9,962 bases of DNA from Desulfuromonas sp. SDB. Its GTDB lineage: Bacteria > SDB-A. The stretch is from contig LKUE01000287.1 of the NCBI GenBank assembly GCA_001412365.1, forward strand, positions 1 to 9,962, given 5' to 3'. The notes beneath the pieces were generated by a model. That model saw only the letters and a list, made by a program, of their open reading frames with translations. It was not told the origin of the DNA and did no database searches. The translations under genes were made by a program, and so were the position numbers. Position 1 is the first letter of the stretch. Every line of letters starts with the position of its first letter. This document shows, piece by piece, positions 17 through 9,850 of this stretch.

Positions 17-328
17 TTAGAGATTACCAAGGAAGGAGGTAATTTTCTCTACCTTGGCCTTGTCTGTAGCCTTGCTACGGATTATCTTGTCGATATCCGC
101 CTTGAGGGTACGGAGGTCGTTAAGTTCATCCTTGCGGTGGGATTTTCTGCGCTTGGCTGCTTCCCTCTTCCGCTCCTTCTTCTTGACCTCAGCACAGGTA
201 GGGCAGTATTTGGACCCTGAGTATGGGCTTTCATATGCAGCTCCACAGGAGGCGCAGACCCTTGCATTAGGGGTTTGTTCGACAGCGGGTTCCTTGGTTT
301 TGGGTTCGGTCTTGGTCTTTTTAGCCAT
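17..328 (-). CDS. Zinc-ribbon protein with basic helical tail
   Basis: A 103-residue protein from the ATG at 328. An in-frame ATG at 337 exists, but the start at 328 lies at the same distance from an upstream hairpin as the start of the gene at 9392-9823. Residues 1-22 are Lys/Glu-rich. Cys25, Cys28, Cys42 and Cys45 form a C-x2-C-x13-C-x2-C zinc ribbon, followed by a strongly basic helix (about 48-67) and a second charged helix to the C-terminus. This design suits binding of DNA or RNA, or a transcription regulator; the exact role is unknown. The cysteine spacing and following basic helix match the protein at 9016-9390, so the two are probably paralogs. It has its own promoter and leader and appears to be a separate transcription unit from the large operon that ends at 447. 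Confidence 0.8.
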   Translation of the reverse strand: MAKKTKTEPKTKEPAVEQTPNARVCASCGAAYESPYSGSKYCPTCAEVKKKERKREAAKRRKSHRKDELNDLRTLKADIDKIIRSKATDKAKVEKITSFLGNL

Positions 329-338
329 TTCGTACATC

Positions 339-4085: not shown

Positions 4086-4718
4086 TCATTTCTCCATCTT
4101 GATTATCCCATCTGGAATCGTATCAAGGGTATATTGTTCAAAGGAACGGTCCCTATCAAACAAAATGAACTCATGCTTGTCGTATGACAACCTGCGTACA
4201 GCGTCTACGCAATCGGCATTCATATTCCTTAATGTTTTAAGGGCATTCGCTCCGGATATCTTGAATACTATCAGGTAATCGGCCACATCCATTACATAGG
4301 TATTTAGGTCTGTGGGCCTACGAGAAACCGCAATAAGGTCAAGTTGCATGTGTCGGCACTGAATGTATGTTCTGCGGATAGATGCATTAAGCAACCTCTG
4401 TGATGGCATATACATATCCGCCTCCTCATATACCAGCATTCTCAACCTCTTGGGTTTATTGTGGCCCTTGGCCTGTTTCTCCAATGTAAGGATATTCGGC
4501 CATACTAGTTTCCTATGGATTAATGCAATCTCCTGATTGAGAGAGTCATAATTCTCCATAAACTTAGTATGTGGCACATACCTGGTGAACCCATCATATT
4601 CATCCATGGGGTCTATTACGAGATGATACGGCTGGCTCCTCAGGAAATACTCTCTCGTGAAATAAGATTTCCCCGAACCCTGCAGGCCCAGGACAGCAAT
4701 CTTTACCAACCGTACCAC
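4086..4718 (-). CDS. A32/PRD1-type genome-packaging ATPase
   Basis: A P-loop ATPase that would translocate viral DNA into preformed capsids. Counted from the GTG at 4718 (210 aa): Walker A GLQGSGKS at 11-18, Walker B RMLVYEEAD at 93-101 with paired acidic residues, and a sensor-like LIAVSRRPTDLN at 128-139, which is typical of the FtsK-HerA superfamily branch used by membrane-containing icosahedral viruses. About 200 residues is the family's usual size. A TTG start at 4709, six bases after GAGGTG, would give a neater N-terminus (VKIAVLGLQ) and is a good alternative. No membrane segment is seen. Its stop overlaps the next gene's start region, and it heads the virion module. It is clearly not a large terminase, since there is no nuclease domain. 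Confidence 0.9.
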   Translation of the reverse strand: MVRLVKIAVLGLQGSGKSYFTREYFLRSQPYHLVIDPMDEYDGFTRYVPHTKFMENYDSLNQEIALIHRKLVWPNILTLEKQAKGHNKPKRLRMLVYEEADMYMPSQRLLNASIRRTYIQCRHMQLDLIAVSRRPTDLNTYVMDVADYLIVFKISGANALKTLRNMNADCVDAVRRLSYDKHEFILFDRDRSFEQYTLDTIPDGIIKMEK

Positions 4719-5172: not shown

Positions 5173-5341
5173 GACGCTCAACCTCCTCCATAATAAACTT
5201 AGACACCAAATCCCTTATCGGAGGGTTTTGCCGGATGAGATTTATACCCATACCAGCAAAATATACCTCTCTTGGTGTGATAGATTCCTTATGACGATAT
5301 AAGAAATCCTCAAGGTCTGTGGCCACATCAATCGAATTCAT
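5141..5341 (-). CDS. Unknown small helical protein, 66 aa
   Basis: ATG at 5341, preceded by GGAGAGGAAA. The same frame stays open further upstream to 5665, but that part overlaps the zinc-finger gene and is a shadow. The protein is charged and mostly helical (VATDLEDFLYRHKES, IRDLVSKFIMEEVERHG) with a central GMGINLI stretch that is too short to cross a membrane. There is no cysteine. It overlaps the end of the C2H2 gene by 14 bases and the start of the 143-aa gene by about 30, so all three are likely translationally coupled. No family recognised. Confidence 0.6.
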   Translation of the reverse strand: MNSIDVATDLEDFLYRHKESITPREVYFAGMGINLIRQNPPIRDLVSKFIMEEVERHGGIPTKTEP

Positions 5342-5672
5342 TTTCCTCTCCACATTTGGGACAGAAATGGAATTCCCTGCTGGAAGTGTATCCACATCCT
5401 CCACATTGATATCCGTCATCATCTTCCTCTGTTTCGGCATCTTTGGTGGGTGTGATTTTAACGCGCGAAGCCCTATCTTCATCACCAAAGAGGTCAATTC
5501 CTTCTGATTCATCCTCGTCTGTCTCCTCTTCCCTCGGTATATCCCTATCTGGCTTGGCTTTACATACTGCGAGATGCCCATTGAGAGCATTTTTGGACCT
5601 AAATCCCTTCTCACAGTGAGGACACACATAGATAAGAGCATCCTCTTTCGATGGCTGTTTCTCATCAGTCAT
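5328..5672 (-). CDS. C2H2-type finger plus zinc-ribbon protein with acidic linker, 114 aa
   Basis: Residues 17-37 form a classic finger with CCHC ligands: Cys17, Cys20, then 12 residues, His33, and Cys37 in place of the second His (CPHCEKGFRSKNALNGHLAVC). A strongly acidic linker (about 47-87) follows, then a zinc ribbon with Cys90, Cys93, Cys104 and Cys107 (CGGCGYT, CPKCGEEN). Small C2H2 proteins are frequent regulators in archaeal viruses; the finger probably binds DNA, and the ribbon may touch DNA or transcription factors. No ribosome site is seen before the ATG at 5672; an AT-rich box about 20-26 bases upstream suggests a leaderless transcript. It is the first gene after the polymerase. 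Confidence 0.8.
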   Translation of the reverse strand: MTDEKQPSKEDALIYVCPHCEKGFRSKNALNGHLAVCKAKPDRDIPREEETDEDESEGIDLFGDEDRASRVKITPTKDAETEEDDDGYQCGGCGYTSSREFHFCPKCGEENEFD

Positions 5673-5674
5673 AC

Positions 5675-5688
5675 AATAAAAAGGACGG
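5675..5688 (-). repeat. 14-base repeat CGTCCTTTTTATTG, copy 2
   Basis: Identical to 4721-4734 and placed three bases before the ATG at 5672. The shared position relative to gene starts at two operon joints suggests a functional signal, not chance. Confidence 0.45.
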
Positions 5689-5708
5689 CCTAATAAACTA
5701 AAAGAGAA
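5689..5708 (-). promoter_or_regulatory. Possible internal promoter before the C2H2 gene
   Basis: The 36-base gap after the polymerase stop contains minus-strand TTTTAGTTTATTAGG, a TATA-like box whose centre is about 20-26 bases before the ATG at 5672. In archaea this spacing gives a leaderless or nearly leaderless mRNA, which agrees with the missing ribosome site. It may separate late structural genes from the replication genes. Confidence 0.35.
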
Positions 5709-7523
5709 TTATTCGTTGATAATAAGAGGCTCAACCCATCCAGATGCCGTTCGGACACCTTTATGATATTTTCGGGTGGGCCTTTTCTCGAAGTTATCAA
5801 CAATTATTACCCCTTCATCAATACCCCTTGCCCGCATACCAGTCATCCTGACAAAATGAACCTGTTTGAAAACACCATCCTTTTCGACAGCATCTTCACG
5901 GATACCTTTTATAGCACGATGGCCGTTGAAGAGATAATCCTTTGCACCATGTATCGTTAGAGGACCCTCTTCCTCAAGTTTATATGCACCTAACCTGGAT
6001 GGCGATACACGGCCAGCAGAACATAGGGCCTCATATCCAACCCTATCACAGAAAATCGAGTCTGTATCAACATAATACACTTCTCCACCAGATGAATGAA
6101 TATAGCGTATATCATCATAGAGGATTGTCCGGGTATAGGCCCTGATGAATGACGATATGGCTGTAAAAGTATTGGCAGAATCTCTCTTGGTGCGAGTATA
6201 CATCCACTTTCTGTCACCAAACACCTTTACTGAGAATGTAGCACCAGTGGATTCATCAAATACCTCTATATCTTCGGAAGAGAGAGGACCAGTAACCTCC
6301 ATCGACAGCGGCACATGTTGAGCAAATTTACCCTCCAACGAATTCATGAAGTATTTGGACATTGTATCCAGAGTCTTATTATCTAAAGACTTATATTTTA
6401 ATCTCAGGGAATAGAAATAATCTATATACGACTTGAACAATATAGATGACGAGTATTTCAGCAGCATCTCGCCCTCGACAAGTGAACCACCTACCGACAA
6501 TAATTGAGCATATTCCATGGATGTAATAGTAGCGGAGAACGTGCCAACAGGAAATATAGTTCTTTCGATACGTGGAGCAACGACACGGCGAACAGATATG
6601 ACAGGGGTAGGAACAAAGAACTTGCCCTGTACTAGGAAAAGTGTTCCCTGGTCCAGTAACCCGCTCAAGGACTTGGCCTTGGGGTGCACGAGTCCTCCCG
6701 CTAACCTGCAGGGTAATTCTTTTTCCGCCATGATGTACGGATGGAAGGAATTTACATCCAGCTTATAGGCATGCTTGATATTTCCTAGGAAAAATGCCTC
6801 ATTCCTGCCACCTTTATAGGATGCCCTCTCAATCTGGGATGCCTCCGGGTGGTGATGGATATATATGGGGTTATCGATAAAGCGGTGTCGAAATGTAGTC
6901 AAACACTGTGCTGCTATGCTTGGCCTGTAAGGTCCCAGGTCATTGTCTTTTAGGAAATTCATCCATTCAAGCATCCATGTCCTTACTATTTCTGCATCGC
7001 GTTTACAATACGTTGATACCTCTTCATCGGAATATTGGTCTAGTTTCGATGCGTCCACATCAATCTTTTCTAGTCCAAGTTCTTCTCCTATCCTTGCAAG
7101 TTTTGGTCTGGTTCCAAGGTGATTACCCATATCAAGGAACCATACTACGCTCCCATTACAAGTCGCCTCTATGATAAATGGCTTATCAATGGGTGCTCTC
7201 TTGAGATGCCATCCTTCTCTCTCAGTTATTCTCTTTATTACACCTAAAATTTGGTAGTCAAAAGAGGCATTATATGAATACACAAATACTGCTTTTTGTC
7301 TGTGTCCTATAAAATCTTCTAGGTCGTCAAAAAACTGGTCTGGTGTCTTAAATTCCTTGCTGTATTCTTCTCCCGTCTTCCAGAAAATTGCCCACCCTAG
7401 ACGCAATAAATGGAGTTTTGGGGTTCCTTTTCCCTTCCATAGGTCTGTTGGTGTTCCTGTCGTCTCAGTATCCAAAAATACCATTCTTCTTACATTAGTA
7501 GTGCTTTTTATTTCTGACAACAT
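5709..7523 (-). CDS. polB: Family B DNA polymerase, probably protein-primed
   Basis: Replicative polymerase with a 3'-5' exonuclease, 604 aa from the ATG at 7523, eleven bases after GGAGGT; the open frame continues upstream to 7652, but that part overlaps the previous gene. Exo I DTE (Asp18, Glu20), Exo II NASFD (Asn85, Asp89), Exo III YCKRD (Tyr172, Asp176). Linker motif YKGGR (236-240) is the YxGG/A type seen in phi29-like enzymes. Motif A DVNSFHP (256-262), motif B K-x3-NSLEGKF (390-400), motif C YVDTDS (484-489). All catalytic acids are present. Length near the 572 aa of phi29 polymerase and the YxGG motif favour protein priming. Unusual: motif A ends Phe-His-Pro where Tyr-Pro is usual, and motif B has Glu where Tyr is usual, so both tyrosines that line the incoming nucleotide are changed. 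Confidence 0.93.
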   Translation of the reverse strand: MLSEIKSTTNVRRMVFLDTETTGTPTDLWKGKGTPKLHLLRLGWAIFWKTGEEYSKEFKTPDQFFDDLEDFIGHRQKAVFVYSYNASFDYQILGVIKRITEREGWHLKRAPIDKPFIIEATCNGSVVWFLDMGNHLGTRPKLARIGEELGLEKIDVDASKLDQYSDEEVSTYCKRDAEIVRTWMLEWMNFLKDNDLGPYRPSIAAQCLTTFRHRFIDNPIYIHHHPEASQIERASYKGGRNEAFFLGNIKHAYKLDVNSFHPYIMAEKELPCRLAGGLVHPKAKSLSGLLDQGTLFLVQGKFFVPTPVISVRRVVAPRIERTIFPVGTFSATITSMEYAQLLSVGGSLVEGEMLLKYSSSILFKSYIDYFYSLRLKYKSLDNKTLDTMSKYFMNSLEGKFAQHVPLSMEVTGPLSSEDIEVFDESTGATFSVKVFGDRKWMYTRTKRDSANTFTAISSFIRAYTRTILYDDIRYIHSSGGEVYYVDTDSIFCDRVGYEALCSAGRVSPSRLGAYKLEEEGPLTIHGAKDYLFNGHRAIKGIREDAVEKDGVFKQVHFVRMTGMRARGIDEGVIIVDNFEKRPTRKYHKGVRTASGWVEPLIINE

Positions 7524-7530
7524 GTGCGCT

Positions 7531-7911
7531 TTATACCTCCTCTGCCCACTCTCCATCTTCATACATAATATTTCTAGAACCTCCTTGGACGACAAGCTCA
7601 TCTTCATTCCAATATTTGCCATCTTCTTCGTCATATTCTTCCTTCCTGGCATTATAGAACTTTGTTGCCGCCTGTCGTATTTGGGATGAGGTCATTGCCC
7701 TATCTGAACGTATAGTTACATGTCCTCTACTACTATTACCCTTCGGGCGCACAATATAGTAATATTTGTCACCATATATATGCACCCCTTCTTCTTTGGG
7801 TATTATTATCCCCTTGTACGTGGTCCTGGTCTGTGCTATCGTTGCACCCGTTCTGGCTGCTTCTTCCTTAATATATCTCCAGTATCGCTTAAGGGATTCG
7901 CTTCTTGACAT
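7531..7911 (-). CDS. Unknown 126-aa protein, candidate terminal protein
   Basis: ATG at 7911, four bases after GGTGAGG; it begins inside the end of the purine enzyme gene (23-base overlap) and ends seven bases before the polymerase start. The N-terminus (RSESLKRYWRYIKEEAART) is a basic aromatic helix. Residues 28-70 look like strands with several Tyr (YKGIIIPKEEG, DKYYYIVRPKG). A helix (AATKFYNARKEEY) and an acidic tail follow. In protein-primed replicons the terminal protein gene commonly sits directly upstream of the polymerase, and these proteins are short and poorly conserved. Several Tyr, Ser and Thr could carry the priming hydroxyl. The role rests on position alone; a DNA-binding accessory protein is the alternative. 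Confidence 0.6.
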   Translation of the reverse strand: MSRSESLKRYWRYIKEEAARTGATIAQTRTTYKGIIIPKEEGVHIYGDKYYYIVRPKGNSSRGHVTIRSDRAMTSSQIRQAATKFYNARKEEYDEEDGKYWNEDELVVQGGSRNIMYEDGEWAEEV

Positions 7912-8884
7912 AATCCCTCACCTGTTCACCGTGGCGAGTATAGGATATGTCATATCCCTCATCATGGATTGCCTGGGTAATATATTCAAGCTCATCCGGT
8001 GTCGTCCAGTCGGTATGGGTTAATATGATAGAATCAGGAGTATTTAGGTTCGCTGCTTTGCGAAAATCTCGCAGGTCAAATTTCCCTATTCGCTCCTCGC
8101 CATATGGGGTGTTATCCTCGTTGGTCTGTTGCCGTCTGTAGTCAGTTATTTTCGCACCAGATTTCCTCTCTATCTCATCGAACGATGTTTCCTGCGGGAG
8201 AGGGCCACTGTTTCCAGCCACCCGCATAGGGTAGCACCGTACAACGCCATATACATGTCTGACAGCCTTTATACCTATTCCGGCTGCATTCATTACTGCT
8301 GGTGCTGTCACATCATAGGATGTGGTATGTGGGTAGTCGCCATGGGTTATTGATAATAAGGCTCCTTGAGAGGCCTCGATAAGACCATGCCTGCCCATCT
8401 TCACCAGCTCATTAATATCCCTTGAGACATCAGATGTTTCACCTGGAAATACTGATGAGGCGAGGATCGCTGTTCCATCCCTCCTAATCTTTGCGATAAG
8501 TGCCGGGGAGATACCCATTCCATATCCTCCTCTTCGTTCATAGAGTCCCAGTTGTTTTGATTCATCCCTATCTCTGGCAACAGAGATGGGAGCACCAGCA
8601 TCAATGGTGAGATATCTGATGTTATATCTAAGCCGTTCAGTAGCAAGTATATCAGGCCTAATGACCATCCCTCCTGCAAGGAAACAGGGTACATCTGGCC
8701 TAATCGCGGCAATACAAGGTAGCACCCGCATGCGGTAAAACCTAGGGCCATATCGAAACCTATGTTCTGCCTGGGAACCCCCTGTCCTCACAGCAAAATC
8801 ATACCTGTTCTCCATGTCAAGCATTACAGCCGATGCTCCTTTACCCTCGTCACCATACTGCATTCCAACAATAATATCAATCAT
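7889..8884 (-). CDS. Adenylosuccinate-synthetase-family enzyme (PurA/PurZ type)
   Basis: 331 aa, close to archaeal PurA (about 340) and phage PurZ, shorter than bacterial PurA (about 430). PurA joins Asp to IMP using GTP; PurZ does the same with dGMP on the path to 2-aminoadenine DNA. Seen: YGDEGKG (10-16) with the catalytic Asp12 kept, where phage PurZ usually has Ser/Gly; a His41 equivalent kept in GGSQAEH; ASQG with the substrate Gln173; TTSYDVTAP (187-195); and RCYPMRVAGNSGP (216-228), closer to phage PurZ than to the RVGAGPFPTE of PurA. Changed: the IMP-site Gly-Thr-Thr is GGY (119-121); the Arg-rich aspartate loop is TPYGEERIGKFD with one Arg of four; and the guanine loop STGP is YTRHG (315-319). 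Asp292 of LTHTD remains. GAGGAAG precedes the start. It may be PurA, a PurZ0-like enzyme or one with a new substrate. Confidence 0.88.
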   Translation of the reverse strand: MIDIIVGMQYGDEGKGASAVMLDMENRYDFAVRTGGSQAEHRFRYGPRFYRMRVLPCIAAIRPDVPCFLAGGMVIRPDILATERLRYNIRYLTIDAGAPISVARDRDESKQLGLYERRGGYGMGISPALIAKIRRDGTAILASSVFPGETSDVSRDINELVKMGRHGLIEASQGALLSITHGDYPHTTSYDVTAPAVMNAAGIGIKAVRHVYGVVRCYPMRVAGNSGPLPQETSFDEIERKSGAKITDYRRQQTNEDNTPYGEERIGKFDLRDFRKAANLNTPDSIILTHTDWTTPDELEYITQAIHDEGYDISYTRHGEQVRDYVKKRIP

Positions 8885-9035
8885 CTTGCTTCCTCAGTTC
8901 TTCAGATACTGTCTTTACTGCCTTCTCCAGACGCGATATAACTATTCCTGGTTCAGGATGTGCTATTCGTATTTCAACCTGCCAATAGTGTCCTCCTGGA
9001 CGATACAAAACAACTTCACTCTTCGGTAACTGCAT
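8877..9035 (-). CDS. Unknown small protein, 52 aa
   Basis: The ATG at 9035 is chosen because AAGGAGGGC lies about ten bases upstream; the frame is open to 9074 inside the previous gene. The stop overlaps the start of the purine enzyme gene by eight bases. Predicted shape is two strands (EVVLYRP, YWQVEIRIAH) joined by a GGHYW turn, then one charged helix (ISRLEKAVKTVSEELRKQ). No cysteine or membrane segment. A small partner or regulator of the neighbouring enzyme or SSB is possible, but nothing in the sequence tells. Confidence 0.6.
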   Translation of the reverse strand: MQLPKSEVVLYRPGGHYWQVEIRIAHPEPGIVISRLEKAVKTVSEELRKQDD

Positions 9036-9390
9036 TATCTTTTGCCCTCCTTTCTTCTCTCTTTCTGCGGGCATATTCTCTCTGCCGCCTATTCCTATTC
9101 TCCACCTTCACAATAGGACCACATTTCTTGCAGTATTTTTGTGTTGGGTGTTCCTTAGGTACGATTTCCCCGCACCTGAGACATTTTAATTTTGCGATAG
9201 GTGGTTCCTTCCACCCAAGCTCCTTTTTATGTCTGCGAAGACTAGACTCAATTTCAAGCTCTGTCTTATGAGAGCCTCCTACCTTCAGCTTTCTGTCAAA
9301 AGGAGTAGGAGGAGCCTCGACAACATAATACATTAGGTTGCCGTCCTCGTCATAGACAGGAATCATCTGCTTCCTACTCATTGTTGTCAT
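9016..9390 (-). CDS. Zinc-ribbon protein with basic helical tail, 124 aa
   Basis: Start ATG at 9390, one base after the stop of the SSB-like gene; an internal ATG at 9381 is also possible. Residues 8-30 form a small acidic, Tyr-containing segment (IPVYDEDGNLMYYVVE), then a charged linker. Cys70, Cys73, Cys87 and Cys90 make a C-x2-C-x13-C-x2-C ribbon (CLRCGE, KYCKKCG), followed by a very basic helix (about 95-117: many Arg/Lys). The spacing between the cysteine pairs is the same as in the protein at 17-328, including KYC before the third position, and the basic tail follows directly in both. Nucleic-acid binding or transcription control is likely. It lies in the replication module, second gene of the operon. 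Confidence 0.75.
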   Translation of the reverse strand: MTTMSRKQMIPVYDEDGNLMYYVVEAPPTPFDRKLKVGGSHKTELEIESSLRRHKKELGWKEPPIAKLKCLRCGEIVPKEHPTQKYCKKCGPIVKVENRNRRQREYARRKREERRAKDNAVTEE

Positions 9391-9391
9391 A

Positions 9392-9823
9392 CTACTTCAG
9401 TTCCCCGGCCTGCTCCATCCTAAGAAAAGTTGCCTTGGATACAACAGAATACATCCTGTTGCCGGTAGGAAGAACCTTCTTGATGAAGACTACCTCTAGT
9501 GGTAATTGGTCCTCCACCTTATCAAGCCGCTCCATTACCATCTTGGAGCCACAGTTGAAGATAATGTTATCCTCAATGTGAATGGTATAGTATGGCCCAT
9601 ATGCGCCATCCCTGCGGTCAAATCCTGATACTGTCACAAGAGAATTGATTACATCATCCATGGCGACAAGCTCACCATCGTAGAAACCCTCTCCAAGGGG
9701 GTCTGTCATGTCGGCCATAAATTCTTCCTCTTTCGATACAGGGTTACCCTTAAGGGTATGCTGAGTCTCAGCAATCTTTTTACCTCCAGCGGTATGGAGG
9801 TCCTTACCGATAGTTTTACCCAT
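9392..9823 (-). CDS. Probable OB-fold single-stranded DNA-binding protein, 143 aa
   Basis: Residues 1-45 are polar and flexible. The core (about 58-132) has the order expected of an OB fold: strand NSLVTVSGFDRR, turn GAYGP, strand YYTIHIED, strand IIFNCGS, helix MVMERLDKV, strand LPLEVVFIKKV, strand MYSVVSK. The YGPYYTI turn and KKV-PTGNRMYSV ending recall small viral ssDNA-binding proteins, which coat displaced strands during protein-primed replication. It lacks the acidic tail of bacterial SSB. It is the first gene of the operon, behind a promoter and the GNRA hairpin leader that also precedes the 17-328 gene, consistent with early or regulated expression. The fold call rests on strand pattern; another OB-fold or nucleic-acid protein is possible. 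Confidence 0.7.
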   Translation of the reverse strand: MGKTIGKDLHTAGGKKIAETQHTLKGNPVSKEEEFMADMTDPLGEGFYDGELVAMDDVINSLVTVSGFDRRDGAYGPYYTIHIEDNIIFNCGSKMVMERLDKVEDQLPLEVVFIKKVLPTGNRMYSVVSKATFLRMEQAGELK

Positions 9824-9834
9824 TTTGCGTTTCC

Positions 9835-9850
9835 TGAGGATTGCTCCTCA
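9835..9850 (-). promoter_or_regulatory. GNRA-loop hairpin in the leader of the SSB-like gene
   Basis: Minus-strand TGAGGA, loop GCAA, TCCTCA: a 6-bp stem with a GNRA tetraloop eleven bases before the ATG at 9823. It matches the hairpin at 339-356 in stem sequence and position but has GCAA in place of GAAA. GAGGAG in the 5' arm would be masked when folded. Confidence 0.65.

Follow-up and report, generated by a model that had tools for sequence, protein, structure and literature searches.

Gene content of the 10-kb window

The DNA analyzed here, a window of 9,962 nt, is the entire contig C287 of a 3.14 Mb bacterial bin, and its likely genes all lie on the minus strand. An open reading frame of 331 aa (7889–8884), with an ATG start codon at 8884 and GAGGAAG upstream, encodes an adenylosuccinate-synthetase-fold protein of the PurZ type, as assigned by Pfam, phrog, fold and tree. 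The protein matches PF00709 (9.9e-35) and phrog_1211 (‘2-aminooxy adenylosuccinate synthetase’, 8.5e-44), and it scores at most 145 bits with the NCBIfam PurA and PurZ models, whose cut-offs of at least 300 bits lie far above. According to the AlphaFold2 model (pLDDT 95.2, pTM 0.93), the predicted fold is intact. The closest solved structure is Pyrococcus PurA (5k7x; Z 43.0, 316 residues, 2.0 Å), and further neighbours in the PDB are phiVC8 PurZ (6fm1, Z 40.9), S-2L PurZ (7odx, 40.1) and PurZ0 (7vf6, 39.7). The original prediction, made from the DNA alone, had placed the protein in the PurA/PurZ family and pointed to a PurZ-like block; Pfam, phrog and fold bear out the former, and the presence of RVxGNSGP the latter. 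A defence-library scan of the gene gave no match.

Several small reading frames surround this gene. A 65-aa frame (8877–9074), which overlaps its start by 8 nt, has no family match in Pfam, phrog or NCBIfam, and a 143-aa frame (9392–9823), the first gene of the replication-side block, has no significant match in the same three collections. A single 126-aa frame (7531–7911, no significant match in phrog or NCBIfam) separates the PurZ-type gene from a protein-primed-type DNA polymerase of family B (PolB, 5709–7652; PF03175 1.7e-23, phrog_1907 9e-39), in which the motifs DVNSFHP, NSLEGKFA and YVDTDS can be read directly. PF03175 assigns this polymerase to the organellar/viral type, and its nearest records come from 10-kb Vibrio phages and from the archaeal virus LCBv1, whose record carries a protein-primed annotation. 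Farther along are a C2H2 zinc-finger protein (5328–5672; PF00096 6.5e-6) and a packaging ATPase of the HerA/FtsK type (4086–4718; phrog_2666 9e-15), whose nearest records are STIV2 (5e-5) and HCIV-1. Besides that, two small proteins (9016–9390 and 17–337, minus strand) carry a zinc-ribbon-like CxxC...CxxC pattern together with basic RKR stretches, and the former shows a weak likeness to endonuclease VII (phrog_1035, 3.5e-5). Two copies of a TGAGGA-GNAA-TCCTCA hairpin with GNRA-type loops (340–355 and 9835–9850, minus strand) are located within a 59-nt direct repeat (80%), directly ahead of two start codons. The chance expectation is 0.02, and the hairpins could possibly represent a shared operator or translational control element.

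Since the ATPase and PolB look closest to those of archaeal viruses, the binning of the contig was not taken as host evidence. The bin's own PurA (431 aa, 2e-162) sits elsewhere in the bin, outside the window contig. A PolB search across the bin's phylum returned the window itself as the sole match, and CRISPR-like DNA matches in the four genomes of this phylum yielded nothing convincing. Terminal inverted repeats of the contig were not found, the Rfam scan of the window gave no match, and the structural proteins of the window produced no confident capsid match in Pfam, phrog and a further search. By its gene content, the contig probably derives from a small virus, which was probably tailless and possibly infected an archaeon. 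A genome that encodes both a protein-primed-type PolB and an ATPase of the HerA type is an unusual setting for a PurZ-type gene.

Phylogenetic placement and active-site residues

Single-sequence scans of viral contigs with the PurZ-type protein, PolB and the ATPase revealed no close relatives, and relatives were recovered by alignment-based queries of IMG/VR and GTDB genomes. Seventeen metagenomic relatives (loci L052–L058, L061, L063, L064, L066, L135, L136, L141 and L148 and the two binned contigs L212 and L213) share a signature that no other sequence of the set has, and the window protein is 30–41% identical to them. When 50,697 phage records were queried with members of the three subgroups, no clade member was identified: two subgroups matched phiVC8-type PurZ best, at ~30–32%, and the third a Ser-type protein of a Bacillus phage, at 27%.

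Monophyly of the clade is supported at 100/99, at 98 without the motif columns and at 100/99 with plasmid homologues added. It stands apart from cellular and viral PurA at 100/100, and the clade, PurZ and PurZ0 form three separate clades, each at ~100/99. The best tree nests the clade among Ser-type viral enzymes and thereby prefers a Ser-to-Asp reversal at position 12 over an ancestral Asp; a position outside all Ser-type sequences, which would accommodate the latter, is not rejected (AU p 0.106), and the deep branching shifts with sequence sampling. An intermediate place between archaeal PurA and PurZ, as originally proposed, was not recovered. Neither is the protein placed deep in archaeal PurA, so that a changed substrate stays a viable idea. 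These results define a previously unnamed viral clade within the PurZ-type branch, of which the window protein is the most divergent member (branch length 1.35–1.85). Judged by its sequence, the window protein is neither a cellular PurA nor a known PurZ or PurZ0.

Residues were compared across 18 clade members, 75 Ser-type viral PurZ-like proteins and 47 PurA. Asp12 (8849–8851, minus strand; E. coli Asp13) is kept, as had been predicted: the alignments place Asp in every clade member where the residue is covered and in PurA. The likeness to PurZ0 enzymes supposed to keep this Asp did not hold up, as all 75 Ser-type viral sequences carry Ser, including the PurZ0 of Archimedes and Wayne, in agreement with PMC12884076. 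In place of NAGHT, the clade motif is NAEHR. Within AEHR (residues 39–42; 8759–8770, minus strand), position 40 is Glu in 18/18 clade members and Gly in all others compared, position 42 is Arg in 18/18 and mostly Thr or Ser elsewhere, and the catalytic His41 is kept in the window protein. At position 38, the window protein has Gln for Asn and is unique in the clade in this respect.

The aspartate loop has been rebuilt (residues 251–267; 8084–8134, minus strand). The TTVT/TTGR loop is absent from all 18 clade members, and E264-R265 stand for R305-R306 of E. coli, an assignment confirmed by an independent profile-profile alignment that placed E-R opposite R-R. R305, at least 99% conserved in PurA and Ser-type PurZ, is charge-reversed in the whole clade (Glu in 18/18, Arg in all others compared), and T301, which is Thr in at least 99% of these proteins, is lost in every clade member. 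R303, which in PurA contacts the ribose 2'-OH and Asp, is lost in the window protein, whereas R306 is retained in all clade members (R265 in the window protein). Position 251 is Arg or Lys in 88% of the clade and Glu in 97–100% elsewhere; further clade marks are R118, F267 and R317.

At the nucleotide sites, the original prediction had named two more losses. The replacement of Thr-Thr by Gly-Tyr in the phosphate loop is seen on the alignment (G119-G120-Y121; 8522–8530, minus strand), but G120-Y121 in place of S/T128-T129 is unique to the window protein and not a clade trait, as the 17 relatives have S/T-T there. The guanine loop has indeed lost STGP, and the S414-G-P region reads R317-H-G-E in the window protein (R317 in 89% of the clade). 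Asp292, however, the counterpart of the E. coli Asp333 that reads the guanine of GTP (8009–8011, minus strand), is invariant in 18/18 clade members. The guanine site is therefore altered but not destroyed, and a different phosphate donor, which had also been suggested, is not indicated.

Published structures help to place these changes. In S-2L PurZ, the loop tip T273–T276 (TTVT) contacts aspartate, R280 (equivalent to R305) is a neighbour of S23, and contacts to the triphosphate come from G51-H52-T53 (PMC8342488). In H. pylori PurA, two arginines bind sulphate, a negatively charged group, and the IMP phosphate is held by T121, N37, T230 and R135* (PMC11571797). Since E40, R42 and E264 are invariant over 18 sequences differing by up to 70%, these residues are under selection. 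The original reading of the letters was accurate, and the rebuilt substrate pocket first noted in the window protein is found throughout the clade; much of it is a conserved clade trait rather than decay. The carboxylate site appears to have been dismantled and two acids introduced, with the phosphoryl-transfer machinery retained.

Gene neighbourhoods and the proposed reaction

A deoxyribosyltransferase gene was found within 4 kb of 8/17 clade loci and 21/64 Ser-type loci, and DNA polymerase I (PolA) within the same distance of 11/17 and 33/64, respectively, compared with none of the 12 viral and 31 genomic PurA loci in either case (Fisher, clade versus 0/43 canonical PurA: 1e-5 for the deoxyribosyltransferase and 4e-8 for PolA, with relatives that are not fully independent). 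A dUTPase is present near 3/17 clade loci. In one relative, at L143, a deoxyribosyltransferase-dUTPase fusion matches Wayne gp52 (3e-22); DmtZ-DutZ fusions of this kind are a feature of PurZ0 phages (PMC12884076). No DatZ- or MazZ-like gene lies near the clade loci. By analogy with 2-aminoadenine phages, the clade sits in modules that make modified deoxypurines in studied phages, but what surrounds the gene in the relatives may not carry over to the 10-kb window virus. In addition, MT-A70 or N6/N4-type DNA methyltransferase genes occur near 7/17 clade versus 7/64 Ser-type loci (Fisher 0.008, uncorrected), with genes noted at L137 (8458–9018), L139 (4632–5186) and L212 (1365–2039), and also at L134, L138, L141 and L143.

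The window protein is likely a PurZ-type enzyme for viral DNA precursors. GTP binding and O6 phosphorylation are taken as kept because the residues concerned are conserved: with GTP and Mg, the enzyme would phosphorylate O6 of a 6-oxopurine deoxynucleotide, either dIMP-like or dGMP-like, using the retained Asp12, Lys15, His41, Gln173, Thr188 and Arg135, with T188 and R135 holding the 5'-phosphate of the nucleotide. A preference for deoxy substrates is suggested by the loss of R303, with V222 and the inserted NSGP loop still present. The phosphate would then be displaced by a nitrogen nucleophile, and it is the binding of this nucleophile that would be altered, the amine being possibly bound by E40 and E264. 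As these two acids occupy the place of the lost aspartate-binding Thr and Arg, a neutral or cationic amine is likelier than aspartate. The different amine donor of the original prediction is thus plausible, given the Glu found in 18/18 in place of an aspartate-binding Arg, and we consider a donor other than aspartate an even bet. Host kinases could convert the product to a triphosphate for the viral DNA polymerase, that is, PolB in the window virus and DNA polymerase I in the relatives, and the outcome would be modified, probably restriction-resistant DNA.

Taken as a whole, we lean towards a functional enzyme of viral nucleotide metabolism that belongs to a new clade, depends on GTP, uses an amine that is probably not aspartate and serves modified viral DNA. 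More tentatively, the clade as such may couple a non-aspartate amine to a 6-oxopurine deoxynucleotide, giving a purine unlike A or 2-aminoadenine that is carried in viral DNA, including that of the probably tailless window virus. Some observations speak against the main reading. The window virus has no recognisable PolA, deoxyribosyltransferase, dUTPase, DatZ or MazZ. The window protein is also the only one of the clade with Q38 and Y121 where the 5'-phosphate binds, a carboxylate might still be held by K/R251 or R42, and the methyltransferases near 7/17 relatives hint at free amino groups in their DNA.

The most serious alternative, which we nevertheless regard as rather unlikely, is that the protein is equivalent to PurZ and has kept aspartate as the donor, whose carboxylates would be bound by R265, R/K251 or R42 despite the rebuilt loop. 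The product would be succino-2-amino-dAMP or N6-succino-dAMP, from which a host lyase would release dZMP or dAMP. The fold and the module partners are of the same kind as in PurZ0 phages, R306 is kept in all clade members, and no lyase is found among the annotated proteins near the relatives, while in studied phages the later steps are left to host enzymes (PMC8342488). Against this stands the clade-wide loss of T301 and R305, the latter with reversed charge; a guanine substrate is also made less likely by Asp12, since PurZ carries Ser at this position.

If the rest of the clade is active and the window protein alone is a pseudoenzyme, either decaying or regulatory, this would account for its long branch and for the change, seen in no relative, of two residues that contact the 5'-phosphate (N38 to Q and T129 to Y). 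Such a pseudoenzyme seems improbable, as the reading frame and its ribosome-binding site are intact, catalytic and clade-defining residues are kept, pLDDT reaches 95, and a contig as compact as this one (10 kb) is an unlikely place for dead genes to persist. An ordinary auxiliary PurA boosting AMP synthesis, to which Asp12, the GTP-reading Asp and the occurrence of PurA genes in viral contigs (e.g. L041 and L089) might point, is very improbable and was already disfavoured, given the separation from cellular and viral PurA in the tree, the PurZ-type RV-G-NSGP insertion, the loss of R303 and R305 and the location of the relatives in DNA-replication modules.

Comparison with known systems

The PurZ-type enzymes characterised in the surveyed literature all use aspartate and lead to 2-aminoadenine. 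For a GTP-dependent enzyme with a non-aspartate donor, a viral clade with a replaced aspartate pocket in a like gene module would open an unexplored route to modified DNA, and its viruses may build a not yet known base into their DNA. Descriptions of this chemistry come from tailed phages, and its occurrence alongside a HerA-type ATPase and a PolB of the protein-primed type would widen its known range. L054, L063, L058 and the window protein offer concrete, expressible proteins for direct assay.

Archaeal and bacterial PurA (5K7X, 1CG0) provides the best structural match (5K7X), and the equivalents of its Asp13, Lys16, His41, Gln224, Thr239, Arg143 and Asp333 are kept in the window protein. 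Unlike PurA, the window protein falls outside the PurA clade, lacks T129, T301, R303 and R305 and has Glu for G40. As a contrast to the clade, canonical Asp-type PurA occurs in a 735-kb uncultured phage (L041, 4998–6200) and a 108-kb viral contig (L151), where it is an ordinary auxiliary metabolic gene.

Rhizobiaceae plasmids encode fusion proteins in which a P-loop AAA_18 domain at the N-terminus precedes a Ser-type PurZ domain (L297 5452–7735, L298 5446–7739, L299 5452–7744 and L300 ~5407–7053). They share the PurZ-type domain with the clade (~33% identity to L054) but are Ser-type, P-loop-fused and bacterial, and cluster with other viral sequences, apart from the clade. In three annotated cases, the fusion is followed by a gene of ~230 aa (DUF7002, 2e-71 in L297 and 4e-70 in L299), and SIR2, AbiE, AbiJ or RelA/SpoT genes lie near some of them. 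This arrangement suggests that a PurZ-type enzyme may here form the core of a defence or conflict system.

PurZ of phiVC8 and S-2L (6FM1, 7ODX), a succino-2-amino-dAMP synthase of the kind with which some phages replace adenine in their DNA, resembles the clade in fold (Z ~40), single-domain length and the RV-x-G-x-SG block and, as in the relatives, adjoins a DNA polymerase I gene. It differs from the window protein in having Ser instead of Asp12, NAGHT instead of NAEHR, a TTVT..RR aspartate loop where the window protein has none, and Gln or Asn instead of Asp at the nucleotide-reading position; DatZ and MazZ have no counterpart near the clade. PurZ0 of Gordonia phage Archimedes (7VF6) and Arthrobacter phage Wayne differs from the clade in its Ser at position 12, its complete aspartate loop and its separate position in the tree. 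Still, it shares the fold, the GTP-reading Asp and the NSGP block with the window protein, and its DmtZ/DutZ/DpoZ set is resembled by the partner genes of the clade relatives.
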